Positions 20,324-28,255 of a stretch of DNA of 64,000 nt are shown one piece after another. The position numbers and the translations under genes were made by a program. Origin of the DNA: Thermus amyloliquefaciens (GTDB lineage: Bacteria > Deinococcota > Deinococci > Deinococcales > Thermaceae); the NCBI RefSeq assembly GCF_000744885.1, contig NZ_JQMV01000003.1:1178001-1242000 (forward strand), in the 5' to 3' direction. The stretch's first letter is position 1. The number at the start of each line of letters is the position of its first letter. Below the pieces are notes generated by a model. The model searched no databases. It worked only from the letters and a program-made list of their open reading frames with translations, and was not told where the DNA came from.

Positions 20324-21693
20324 TCACATTTGCCCCGCCCAAGGACCCTTTAGGCCCCAGCAGGCCAGCCGCGCCGCCCGCAGACCGGAAAGGACGGCGG
20401 CGGGGACGCTCTGCCCGGGAAAGACCCCCCCCCCACCCGGAGGACGTTGGCCAGGAGGCGCACCCGGGGGAAGCGGAAGGGGTGGGTCTGGGGGTACCCC
20501 CCCACCCAGGGCCGCCCCGCGAAGCGGCGGTAGGTGCGGGGGGTGGCGGCGAAGAGGAGCTCCGCCTCCTTGAGGCCTGAGAGGAGGGCCTCCCCCAGGG
20601 CCAGGGCCTTTTCCTGCCAGCGGGCCTTGAGGGCCCGGTACGCCTCCAAAGGAAGCCCTTCCCAAAGGGCCAAGGGGGTGTGAAGGGAAAGGGCGAAGAC
20701 GGTCTTTTCCCCTTCCGGGAACAGGGAGAGGAAGGCGAAGGGGCGCTCCCGGGCGTTTTGCCGGTAGAAGGGAGGGTCCACCCGGAAGGGCAGGACCCCA
20801 TAGAGGGCAAAGGCCCCCCAGGCGTCCTCCGGTGCCCCCTCGGGCAGGCCCAGGAGGGGTTCGGGCGGGACGTTGAGGAGGAAGAGGTCTCCCCGAACCA
20901 CCTCCCTCTCCCCCCGCCTCCTCCCCCCATAGGCCACCTCCACCCCATACGCCCGCCCCTCCCGCAGGAGGAGCCGGGTGGCCCGGGCCCGGTAGCGGAC
21001 CTCCAGGCCCTCGGCCAAGGCCCGGGCCACCGCCCCCACCCCGCCCAGGACCCGCACGGGCCCCAGGTGGGGCAGGTCCAAGGCCAAGGCGGCGTAGAGG
21101 GCGTAGGGGTCCTCCGTCTGGGCGGCGATAAGGAGCTGGGCCCGGAGGAAGAGGCGGAAATCGGGGTCTTCCGGGGCCAGGCGGGAGACCCGGCGGAAGA
21201 GGTCGGGAAGCAGGGGGAGAAGCTCGGGGAAAAGGCGGAGGAGGGCGGGGACCTCCTCCCTCTCCGGGGGCCAGGGGAGCCGGGAGGCCAGGGCCTTGAG
21301 CCTCCCGGCCCGCTCCCCCTGCCAGCGCCAGAAGGGGAGGACCCGCGGCCCGAAGAAGTCCCGCTGGACCTCCCCCTCCGCCTCCCGCCCCACGGGGCGA
21401 AGGAGCCTTCCCCGGGGGAGGAGGACCTCCATGAGGGGGAAGCCCTGAGGGTAAGGCTCCACGGGAAGGCGGAGGCCCAGGAGGTCCTCCAGGAGGGCCA
21501 GGGGCCCCCCGGGGGCAAAGCCCGAAAGGAGGGTGGCCCCCGCGGGGAAGAGGAAGCCCCGGTGGAGAAAGCTCCCCGCCAGGCCCCCCGGGTAGGTGTG
21601 GGCCTCGAGGACCACCACCTCCCACCCCGCCCCCTGGAGGAGCCTGGCCGCCACCAGCCCCCCGATGCCCGCCCCCACCACCACCGCGCGCAC
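20324..21693 (-). pseudogene. FAD-dependent CrtI/CrtISO-like oxidoreductase, 3' frameshift
   Basis: This is a phytoene-desaturase-fold flavoprotein. The dinucleotide motif VVVGAGIGGLVAARLL follows the GTG start at 21693, then VLEAHTYPGGLAGSF. The C-terminal FAD contact normally reads VGDxxFPGQSVPAAVLSGLRAA. Here that segment is split: the frame as read ends at 20350, while adding one C to the ten-C run at 20425-20434 gives VFPGQSVPAAVLSGLRAARL and a stop at 20324. A -10-like TAGCCT lies 7 nt before the start. It may have acted on carotenoids or retinoids, given the rhodopsin scar next door. Confidence 0.7.
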
Positions 21694-21700
21694 GGGAGCT

Positions 21701-21706
21701 AGGCTA
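21701..21706 (-). promoter_or_regulatory. -10 element (TAGCCT) of the FAD oxidoreductase gene
   Basis: TAGCCT on the minus strand ends 7 nt before GTG 21693, the spacing of leaderless Thermus promoters. No clear -35 is visible. Confidence 0.4.
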
Positions 21707-21789
21707 TCCGGAAAGCCATGGGCGGACCTTAGCCCAAGCCAAGATGGTGGGAGGGGAAGGGCGCCTGGCGCGGGCCATCGTGCGGGAGG

Positions 21790-21915
21790 CGGAGGCCGCC
21801 GCAGCCAGGCCTCCATGGCCAAGGCGTGGGGCAGGGTGAGGGCAAAGACCGCCCCCATGTAGGCGGCCAGGGGGTCGCGGAAGAAGGGGTAGAGGGCCAA
21901 GGCCAGGGGGTGGCC
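21790..21915 (-). pseudogene. C-terminal remnant, possible Brp/Blh beta-carotene cleavage enzyme
   Basis: On the minus strand this stretch encodes HPLALALYPFFRDP, then AYMGAVFALTLPHALAMEAWL and then runs without a stop into the FAD gene. A hydrophobic helix ending LTLPHALAxExWL is the kind of C terminus I associate with Brp/Blh 15,15'-dioxygenases, which make retinal. The reading begins exactly where the oppositely oriented rhodopsin remnant begins. The family call is tentative; what is firm is a protein-like tail lacking its 5' part. Confidence 0.35.
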
Positions 21916-22037
21916 ATCCAGATGGGCTACAGCCTGGCCGACCTGATCGCCAAGCCCATCTACGGCCCCTGGTCTTCGCCATCGCCCGGGCCAAGAGCCT
22001 CGAGGAGGGCTTCGGAGCCGAAACCAAGGCCGCCTAG
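21910..22037 (+). pseudogene. Last helix of a microbial rhodopsin (xanthorhodopsin-like), 5' deleted and frameshifted
   Basis: The plus strand reads VAIQMGYSLADLIAKPIYG, then after a one-base shift VFAIARAKSLEEGFGAETKAA and a stop at 22035-22037. This matches helix G and the tail of thermophilic rhodopsin from T. thermophilus JL-18 as I remember it. The retinal-binding lysine (codon 21952-21954) has its aspartate partner four residues before (codon 21940-21942), as in all proton-pump rhodopsins. The frame slips in tac-ggc-ccc-tgg (about 21967-21970), where one base is missing. Helices A-F are absent upstream. Confidence 0.8.
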
Positions 22038-22117
22038 GCCTAAAGGGGCAGGCCCGCCCTTGGGCCCCTTGCGGGCCCACGTTTCCTTGGGCTACAAAGC
22101 TCCTCCTGGAAAGGGCG

Positions 22118-22123
22118 TAGTTT
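22118..22123 (+). promoter_or_regulatory. -10 element (TAGTTT) of the SDR gene at 22130
   Basis: TAGTTT ends 6 nt before ATG 22130, as in leaderless Thermus transcripts. It lies just downstream of the rhodopsin remnant. No convincing -35 is seen. Confidence 0.45.
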
Positions 22124-22129
22124 TCAGGC

Positions 22130-22753
22130 ATGCGGGTTTTGGTGCTGGGCGCCACCGGGGGCCTGGGTAAGGCCCTCTCCCGGCTCCTCCGGGGGGAAGA
22201 GCCCTTCCTTTCTGGGCGCCGGGCCGAGCCCCTCCGCGCCCTGGCAGCGGAGGTGGGGGGCAAGGCCCTTCCCGCGGACCTCGAGGACGAGCTGGAGGCC
22301 AAGGCCCTCCTGGAGGAGGCAGGCCCCTTGGACCTCCTCCTCCACGCGGTGGGCCGGGCAGGGCGGGCAGGGGTGCAGGAGGTGGGGCGGGATGGGCTCG
22401 AGGGGATGCTTGCCGCCCACCTCCTCACCGCCGCCTTCGCCCTCAAATACGCCCGCTTCCGCCCAGGGGCCCGGGCGGTCTTCTTCGGCGCCTACCCCGC
22501 CTACGTGCGGGTGCCGGGCTTCGGGGCTTACGCCGCGGCGAAGGCCGCCCTGGAGGCCTACCTTGAGGTGGCCCGCAAGGAGCTGCGGCGCCAGGATGTG
22601 CGCCTGGTGCTGGTGCGCCTCCCCGCGGTGGCCACGGGGCTTTGGACCCCCCTTGGGGGCCCCCCCAAGGGGGCCCTTGCCCCGGAGGAGGCGGCAAGGC
22701 GGGTGCTGGAAGGCGTCCTCAGGGAACCTCCCCCTGAGGTGTTGGAGCTTTAG
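22130..22753 (+). CDS. Short-chain dehydrogenase/reductase
   Basis: This SDR family oxidoreductase has 207 residues. The NAD(P)-binding LVLGATGGLGKALSRLL is at residues 4-20, and the catalytic Y-x-x-x-K reads YAAAKAALEAYL. Substrate specificity cannot be read. It begins a tight + strand run with a flavin reductase-like gene (3 bp gap), a YceI-like gene and uvsE. Its start has no Shine-Dalgarno but has a TAGTTT -10 six bases upstream. Confidence 0.85.
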   Translation: MRVLVLGATGGLGKALSRLLRGEEPFLSGRRAEPLRALAAEVGGKALPADLEDELEAKALLEEAGPLDLLLHAVGRAGRAGVQEVGRDGLEGMLAAHLLTAAFALKYARFRPGARAVFFGAYPAYVRVPGFGAYAAAKAALEAYLEVARKELRRQDVRLVLVRLPAVATGLWTPLGGPPKGALAPEEAARRVLEGVLREPPPEVLEL

Positions 22754-26737: not shown

Positions 26738-27325
26738 CTAGGCGGCTTCCAGAAAGCCCTCCGCTTCCTGCTCCAGGGCTTTCAAGTCCAAAAGGTACAC
26801 CTTGCGGTAGGCGGTGTCGATGAGGCCCTCCCGGCGCAGGTCGGAGAGGATCTTGGACACCGACTCCCGGGTGGAGGCGGTGGCGTCTGCGATCTCCTCG
26901 TGGGAGGCGGTCACGTACAGGCCCCGCTCGTCCCGGTAGGAAGCCGGGGTATCGGCCAGGAAGAGGAGGTAGCGGGCGATGCGTGCCCTAAGCTCCCCCG
27001 TCTGCAGGTGGGTTTCGTAGGCCTGGACCCGGCGCATCTGCCGGGCCAGATTCCGAACCACCTGGTGCAGGGCCTCATGGCTCATGGTTCTAGGGTCCAG
27101 CCCTTCCACCACCACCTCGGTCATGGCCTCGGCGGCGTAGCGGTAGCGCTTACCCTCCAGGGCCTCCTCCCCAAAGTAATCCCCGGGAAGGACGTGCCTG
27201 AGGGTGAGGGTGCGCCCATCGGAAAGGAGCTCCACGATGCGCACCAGACCCGTCTGCAACCGGTACAGGGTGTCCGCCCGGTCACCGGCCAAAAACACCA
27301 CCTCTTTGCGGTTAAACCTCTTCAT
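26738..27325 (-). CDS. ldrP: LdrP, CRP/FNR-family activator of the carotenoid cluster
   Basis: This 195-residue CRP-fold regulator has an N-terminal cNMP-binding-like beta barrel ([35 protein letters not shown]) and a C-terminal winged helix ([20 protein letters not shown]). The cAMP-contact residues of CRP are not evident. It is directly downstream of litR with a 4-base overlap, the arrangement described in T. thermophilus, where LitR represses ldrP in the dark and LdrP activates crtB and photolyase. ATG 27325 fixes the start by that overlap. Confidence 0.9.
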
Positions 27326-28158
27326 GCTCCCTCCTCCAACGCCTTGAGCAAGGCCTCCAGATCCGGCGCATAGACCGCCCCAAGACGACGGGCGGTCTCG
27401 GCATCCGCCCCCTGGCCGCCCAGGAAGACCCTGGGGGCAAGGCCCCTCAGGGAGCCCTCGGGAAGGGCTTTGAGGGTTTCTGGGAACAGGACGGAAAGCA
27501 CCACCGCCTGGGCCCCCAGCTCCCGGGCGAGGCCCTCCAGGTCCGGAAGGGGGGTGTCGGGCCCCAGGTACAGGGCCGGAAACCCCCGCCGCCTCAGGTA
27601 GTAAGCGGCCAGCATGGCCCCGAGCTCGTGCCGCTCCCCAGGGGGGGTGGTCACCAGGATGGGGGCCCCCCGGGGGTAACCCGCCAGGTCCAAGAGCTCT
27701 TGCAGGCGGGAGCGCAGGAACTGGGTCGCCAGGTGTTCCTGGGCCACGTTCACCTCCCCCCGGTGCCAGGCCTCCCCCACCTCCTTCAACACCGGCACCA
27801 AGGCCCCCCGCAGGGCCCCCTCGGGGCCCCAGAGCTTGACCGAGCGGCGGAAGAGGGCCTCCGCCCGGGGCAGGTCCGCCGCCAGGAGGGCGGAAAGGAG
27901 CTCCTGGGGAAGCCCTTCCGGCCGCGCCTCCTGCGCCAGGTAGCGGCGGATGGCCACCTGGGGACTGGCCCCTTCCTCCAGCCAGCGACGGATCACCTTG
28001 AGGGCCTCCACGTCCTCCTCCCGGTAAAGGCGGTGCCCGCCCGGCGTCCTTTCCGGCTTGGGGAAGCCGTAGCGCCTCTCCCACTGCCTAAGGACCTCGG
28101 CGGAGAAGCCGGTCATGGCCTCCACCTCGGCGATGCTGTACACCCCAGGCCGGGTCAT
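27322..28158 (-). CDS. litR: LitR/CarH, adenosylcobalamin-dependent light-sensing repressor
   Basis: This MerR-type regulator binds DNA as an AdoCbl tetramer in the dark and falls apart on light. The winged helix [20 protein letters not shown] is at the N terminus. The light-sensing pocket residues are conserved at the same numbers as in T. thermophilus CarH: Trp131 and Glu141 with His142 in the four-helix bundle, and the cobalt-ligating His177 in [10 protein letters not shown]. The product is 278 residues. ATG 28158 is 6 nt after a TACCCT -10, giving a leaderless mRNA. It overlaps ldrP by four bases. Confidence 0.95.
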
Positions 28159-28164
28159 GCCCTT

Positions 28165-28193
28165 AGGGTACAAAAGTGAACAAGTTTTGTCAA
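28165..28193 (-). promoter_or_regulatory. litR promoter (TTGACA - 17 - TACCCT)
   Basis: On the minus strand a perfect -35 TTGACA (28188-28193) and -10 TACCCT (28165-28170) are 17 bp apart. The -10 ends 6 nt before the litR ATG, so transcription should start at or next to the start codon. Confidence 0.8.
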
Positions 28194-28206
28194 GCTTGTG
28201 TACAGG
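28168..28206. repeat. Four GTACA-like direct repeats, candidate LitR/CarH operator
   Basis: On the plus strand gtaca (28168), gaaca (28178), gtcaa (28189) and gtaca (28200) recur at steps of 10, 11 and 11 bp, each followed by a or g. They cover the litR promoter from -10 to beyond -35. CarH tetramers bind side by side on direct repeats of about 11 bp, so this is the expected place for autorepression. Confidence 0.65.
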
Positions 28207-28212
28207 TTTAGA

Positions 28213-28255
28213 GTGTGCCCGGGACAAAACTCCCCCATACCCGAGGACTTAAAAT
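28213..28255 (+). promoter_or_regulatory. crtB promoter: TAAAAT -10 and an upstream activator-like site
   Basis: TAAAAT (28250-28255) is a near-consensus -10 and ends 9 nt before the crtB ATG. The -35 position (about aaactc) has no match to TTGACA, so an activator is probably needed. A loose dyad (tgtgcccgggacaa, 28214-28227) is centred about 41 bp before the expected start of transcription, where a CRP-type activator such as LdrP would sit. Confidence 0.5.

Follow-up and report, generated by a model that had tools for sequence, protein, structure and literature searches.

The DNA analyzed here (hereafter the window) is a stretch of 64,000 nucleotides from the hot-spring bacterium Thermus amyloliquefaciens. 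It harbors the 3' ends of two genes for retinal-based phototrophy, which meet at a deletion junction between conserved neighbors. The features discussed, with the intact locus of the Thermus genome G022 as reference, are as follows:

20401–21693, minus strand: FAD carotenoid desaturase/isomerase-like gene, the conserved left-hand neighbor, with its frame shifted near the 3' end
21746–21763: second deletion junction, with about 1.9 kb missing relative to G022
21763–21907, minus strand: 3' remnant of a Brp/Blh beta-carotene 15,15'-dioxygenase gene, residues about 207–254
21765–21836, plus strand: C-terminal remnant (residues 459–482) of a DUF2867/NmrA epimerase-like gene, which in relatives overlaps the Blh 3' end convergently
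21903–21910: first deletion junction, where the homologies of the two remnants meet at CCAGGGGG
21904–22037, plus strand: 3' remnant of the Thermus rhodopsin gene, residues about 213–260 (helix G), without a start codon
22038–22129, plus strand: leader of the short-chain dehydrogenase (SDR) gene, formerly the rhodopsin 3' UTR, with a CTACAAA motif
22130–22753, plus strand: SDR gene, the conserved right-hand neighbor
27322–28227, minus strand: CarH, a B12-dependent light-responsive repressor, retained (NF052513, 487 bits); the TTG start may lie upstream of the true start
28177–28204, plus strand: CarH-type operator in the carH-crtB promoter, retained, with three 11-bp repeats at 11/12 consensus positions

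The sequence-only reading had recognized on the plus strand the last helix of a xanthorhodopsin-like pump, with the retinal lysine at 21952 and an aspartate at K-4. Both codons are present (AAG at 21952–21954 and GAC at 21940–21942), and the remnant ends with a stop codon at 22035–22037. It is read in two frames, VAIQMGYSLADLIAKPIYG and LVFAIARAKSLEEGFGAETKAA-stop, with a one-base frameshift after TAC-GGC (after about 21963) that is absent from the relative G023. The query obtained by joining the two frames across the frameshift matched residues 219–260 of thermophilic rhodopsin (TR), the xanthorhodopsin-type proton pump of Thermus thermophilus JL-18 (PDB 5azd; PMC9728251), with an E value of 5.9e-18, and other xanthorhodopsin-type pumps with E values of 5e-8 to 1e-5; the segment thus matches rhodopsin at helix G. 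The retinal Lys and the Asp at K-4 are shared with TR, whereas the window keeps only the last ∼47 codons, frameshifted and without start or promoter. Helices A–F, including the D-T-E pump motif of helix C, are absent from the window and present in intact relatives (DWLLTVPLLLLE). The flanks are those of the intact gene in relatives, namely, the FAD gene on one side and the SDR and flavin reductase genes on the other.

On the minus strand, the tail that had been put forward as a possible C terminus of a Brp/Blh enzyme was found to align with residues 207–254 of the 255 residues of the intact G022 Blh (94% identity, E 5e-25), a protein that scores above the cut-off of the Brp/Blh model TIGR03753. 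The likeness to Brp/Blh proteins (TIGR03753, PF15461) is carried by this tail of ∼48 residues, whereas the remaining enzyme is lost, together with the stop codon, which was removed by the second deletion (∼1.9 kb). The Blh tail frame is therefore open into the FAD gene, giving a 698-aa frame (20350–22446, minus strand), a chance fusion that could mislead gene callers. Both genes lack their 5' parts, as proposed earlier; to this is added that the Blh tail overlaps the remnant of a third gene, the DUF2867 epimerase. The epimerase-like gene and Blh overlap tail to tail by about 80 bp in G022 (L046, 3335–3417). Owing to this overlap, the Blh end is shielded by the constraint on its neighbor's coding sequence for as long as the epimerase is intact.

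Full-length rhodopsin (PF01036) was detected in seven of 27 Thermus genomes and full-length Blh (PF15461) in the same seven. In all seven, the two genes are adjacent and divergent, separated by about 150–190 bp, so that the pieces in the window do correspond to neighboring divergent genes in relatives. The order in G022, in the orientation of the window, is FAD desaturase-like (−), MNT nucleotidyltransferase (+), DUF2867 epimerase-like (+), Blh (−), rhodopsin (+), SDR (+), and flavin reductase (+). The dN/dS ratio of intact rhodopsin was 0.04–0.15 in five pairs, denoting strong purifying selection, and that of intact Blh was 0.20–0.27, denoting clear purifying selection; hence, both are working genes where present. 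Beside the rhodopsin matches outside Thermus (L124–L129), no Blh was detectable in the flanks examined.

Alignment to G022 assigned window positions 21763–21907 to the epimerase/Blh end and positions from 21903 onward to the rhodopsin end; about 1.41 kb of the intervening G022 sequence has no counterpart in the window. The two pieces had been described as starting from one point at about 21912; they do meet, but slightly to the left of it, at 21903–21910. Both break points in intact G022 carry the 8-bp direct repeat CCAGGAGG (as AAGGCCAGGAGG in Blh and GCCCAGGAGGTGG in rhodopsin), about 1.41 kb apart, which makes deletion between short direct repeats a sufficient mechanism for the first junction. 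The deletion, which joined the 3' parts of the two genes and eliminated their 5' parts along with the common promoter, would have arisen by recombination or slippage between these repeats. A single deletion of this kind had been proposed to explain both truncations, and a deletion of ∼1.41 kb relative to G022 does join the 3' parts, but more than one deletion shaped the locus. The second brought epimerase codon ∼459 (21763) next to the region before the FAD gene (21746); relative to G022, it took away the MNT/HEPN pair and most of the epimerase. With a length of only 0.27 kb, the remnant is too short to place the events in order.

The FAD gene had also been described as broken. Its frame is indeed shifted, but by a one-base difference from G022 in a C10 run (20425–20434), which may be a sequencing error or slippage. 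Being a homopolymer indel in a PacBio-only assembly, it is weak evidence of inactivation. The genome of T. amyloliquefaciens YIM 77409T is a PacBio-only draft at 385x coverage (PMC4769583), and the assembly of the window comprises 2,160,855 bases in 6 contigs. Homopolymer errors of the C10 kind are plausible nearby and would favor an assembly artefact, or a pair lying in an unassembled part of the genome, as the source of the apparent loss. Such a source is scarcely credible in view of the 385x coverage, the six scaffolds and the estimated completeness of 99.88%, and because an independently assembled species (T. tenuipuniceus, G023) has a scar with the same Blh end.

The CTACAAA motif in the SDR leader is also found 3' of the junction in many relatives and may represent the −10 region of the SDR promoter. 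It is conceivable that the remnant tail has been preserved because it serves a purpose, whether as a short peptide or as the promoter or leader of SDR. Many scarred genomes retain the rhodopsin 3' UTR with CTACAAA beside SDR, and intact and scarred loci are near-identical in the last ∼45 bases around GCCAAGAGCCTCGAGGAGGGCTTCGG. The coding tail of the window, however, has no start codon and is frameshifted, and in G008, G025, G005/G026, and T. thermophilus HB8, the coding tail is absent while the leader is kept; a function for the tail itself is therefore improbable. CTCGAG occurs at 55 sites in the window (e.g., 21999, 22280, and 22397) against 18.3 in dinucleotide shuffles, a threefold enrichment, and the count of 55 was reached by none of 100 shuffles.

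Comparison of junction sequences at 20 loci, with alignment of junctions to G022, G023, and G013, revealed further scars in the genus. In G023 (T. tenuipuniceus), rhodopsin is retained from residue 206 and Blh from 207; the corresponding residues in G013 are 214 and 158. In G001, rhodopsin remains from residue 195 while Blh and the epimerase are gone, and the locus of its sister G002 (T. altitudinis) is intact. G025 has a degraded Blh tail and the rhodopsin leader, SDR being deleted too, and in G008 the rhodopsin leader is joined to a truncated epimerase. A junction between the rhodopsin leader and the final ∼20 codons of Blh, a stretch that also encodes the epimerase end, is seen in G005, G026, and T. 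thermophilus HB8 (pTT27); in HB8, SDR follows the epimerase directly, with a short Blh end. SDR also lies directly after the epimerase in G006, G010, G011, and G024. The loss had been claimed for one strain: the scar is real, but it is not private to T. amyloliquefaciens. At least four losses are supported, since four junction types (the window with G023; G013; G001; G025) hold remnants best explained by a formerly intact pair. In the species with the epimerase directly beside SDR, an ancestral absence of the pair is conceivable on sequence alone.

The module would be ancestral to the genus and repeatedly lost. The deletions would tend to end between two constrained elements: on one side the coding end of the epimerase, with the Blh tail overlapping it, and on the other the promoter of SDR within the rhodopsin 3' UTR. 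The opposite direction of change, in which some species acquired the pair late and the scars are failed or partial acquisitions, would fit the patchy distribution (7/27) and the mosaic local ancestry. As an example of the latter, G008 (L049, 2850–2970) and G022 (L046), which are not sister species, are identical over the 58 bp before SDR, which points to mosaic inheritance at the locus. Late acquisition is nevertheless very improbable, as the scars are exact 3' ends in native order and orientation, with the same neighbors and with break points that vary by species, and as scarred G001 has a close intact sister in G002. These observations argue for repeated loss.

The scars of the window and of G023 have the Blh break point in common, with a 25-bp difference between their junctions. 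In a core tree of two genes (rpoB and gyrA), T. amyloliquefaciens groups with G001/G002 (support 90–92), and G023 belongs to a clade to which intact G022 is the next relative; a sister relationship between T. amyloliquefaciens and G023 was rejected by the AU test (p-AU 0.0029). The scar and leader of the two are 93–94% identical, against 82.4% at 4-fold sites of the core genes. Intergenic identity with G023 is 93.5% over the full length, the next best genomes reaching 86–88% over part only, although slow evolution of the intergenic part under promoter constraint may inflate this identity. In a local tree built on the DNA from the rhodopsin tail through the SDR 5' half, the window and G023 grouped together (99% bootstrap), whereas the next 810 bases do not unite them. 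As break point and sequence are shared though the core genes reject sisterhood, recombination of the scarred allele between species is suggested as the simplest reading. The allele common to G023 would have moved between species by homologous recombination, and a further 25-bp deletion and the one-base frameshift would have followed in the T. amyloliquefaciens lineage.

Alternatively, the two scars could be independent deletions at the same Blh position via short repeats, with no transfer. The 25-bp difference at the junction makes two separate deletions at the same Blh base possible, the 8-bp repeat CCAGGAGG in G022 explains the window junction with no G023-like intermediate, and G013, in which rhodopsin is broken at the same residue (214) with another Blh end, shows that break points may recur. 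Independent deletion is a rather unlikely account, albeit one to be taken seriously, since the two Blh breaks lie no more than a few bases apart, although >600 positions were possible, and the DNA around them is closest to that of G023, with 99% bootstrap for the segment. The transfer of a scarred allele is accordingly preferred.

The sequence-only reading had further proposed that phototrophy was lost while a carotenoid and light-sensing island was kept. In agreement with this, phytoene synthase and CarH are retained in the window, and searches of its own genome with PF01036, PF15461, and PF03055 gave no match to another copy of rhodopsin, Blh, or an RPE65-type enzyme, the genus-wide PF01036 search serving as the control for the negative PF01036 result. 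A heliorhodopsin search, run without a positive control, gave no match. The best reading is that retinal-based phototrophy was lost and carotenoids were retained. An erosion of the whole carotenoid pathway across the genus was considered and rejected, phytoene synthase being present in 24 of 27 genomes. In G001, which is also rhodopsin-scarred, phytoene synthase (G001:C1:153293–154038) is split into two frames with one internal TAG, and carotenoid synthesis may be eroding there too.

CarH operators consist of tandem 11-bp repeats of the form nAnnTnnACAn (PMC8156234, PMC9304148). CarH-type tandem repeats (TGTnnA on the other strand) were found in the rhodopsin–Blh intergenic region of intact relatives, on the minus strand at L051:2596, L052:2491, and L054:2526. 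The three-repeat score was 12/12 in G004, G018, and G012 (T. igniterrae), 10/12 in G019, and a weak 9/12 in G022, G021, and G002 (shuffle p 0.05–0.065). Only four sites in 193 kb of Thermus DNA scored ≥11, namely, the promoters of G004, G018, and G012 and the carH-crtB promoter of the window (28177). When the rhodopsin–Blh intergenic DNA was aligned directly to the carH-crtB promoter, the outcome was mixed, and the informative comparison came from the scan for repeats. In three relatives, the rhodopsin–Blh promoter is like a CarH operator in that its three tandem repeats fully match the scored consensus; unlike in the known operator, binding is a prediction, and four of the seven relatives have weaker repeats. 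CarH is thus predicted to control the rhodopsin–Blh pair in intact relatives, and where the module is kept, it would make the pump and the retinal-making enzyme light-inducible. The predicted operator would connect the B12 light sensor with rhodopsin-based phototrophy; no such connection was found in the literature searched.

Taking the whole locus into account, the best explanation of the window is almost certainly a dead scar left by deletion in a phototrophy module of two divergent genes, which encode a light-driven proton pump and the retinal-making Blh. Gene loss by deletion is nothing out of the ordinary, but its documentation is unusually good in this case. No earlier report of rhodopsin scars in Thermus was found in the open-access literature, and the word rhodopsin does not occur in the T. 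amyloliquefaciens genome paper (PMC4769583). Among haloarchaea, the patchy distribution of rhodopsins has been attributed to loss and transfer (PMC1885257). The two cases are alike in the independent losses of rhodopsin pumps among related species, but the haloarchaeal history was inferred from presence/absence and trees, whereas in Thermus the deletions have left physical scars whose break points can be mapped and which extend to the retinal-making gene.

A broader reading, to which we give slightly less than even odds, is that retinal phototrophy in Thermus is a CarH-controlled, light-inducible pair of divergent genes that was repeatedly deleted at one spot, with at least one deleted allele having spread between species by natural transformation. 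Rhodopsin pumps occur patchily among bacteria, and a gap may reflect a gene that was never gained or one that was lost; which of the two applies is usually unclear. Within the genus Thermus, scars can be compared with intact copies at single-base resolution, so that loss becomes directly testable. As the locus is empty in the model strain T. thermophilus HB8 while JL-18 has a rhodopsin, a single species would also allow a test of what the pump costs and what it yields at high temperature. If the spread of a deleted allele is true, the loss of phototrophy would itself be an exchangeable trait.
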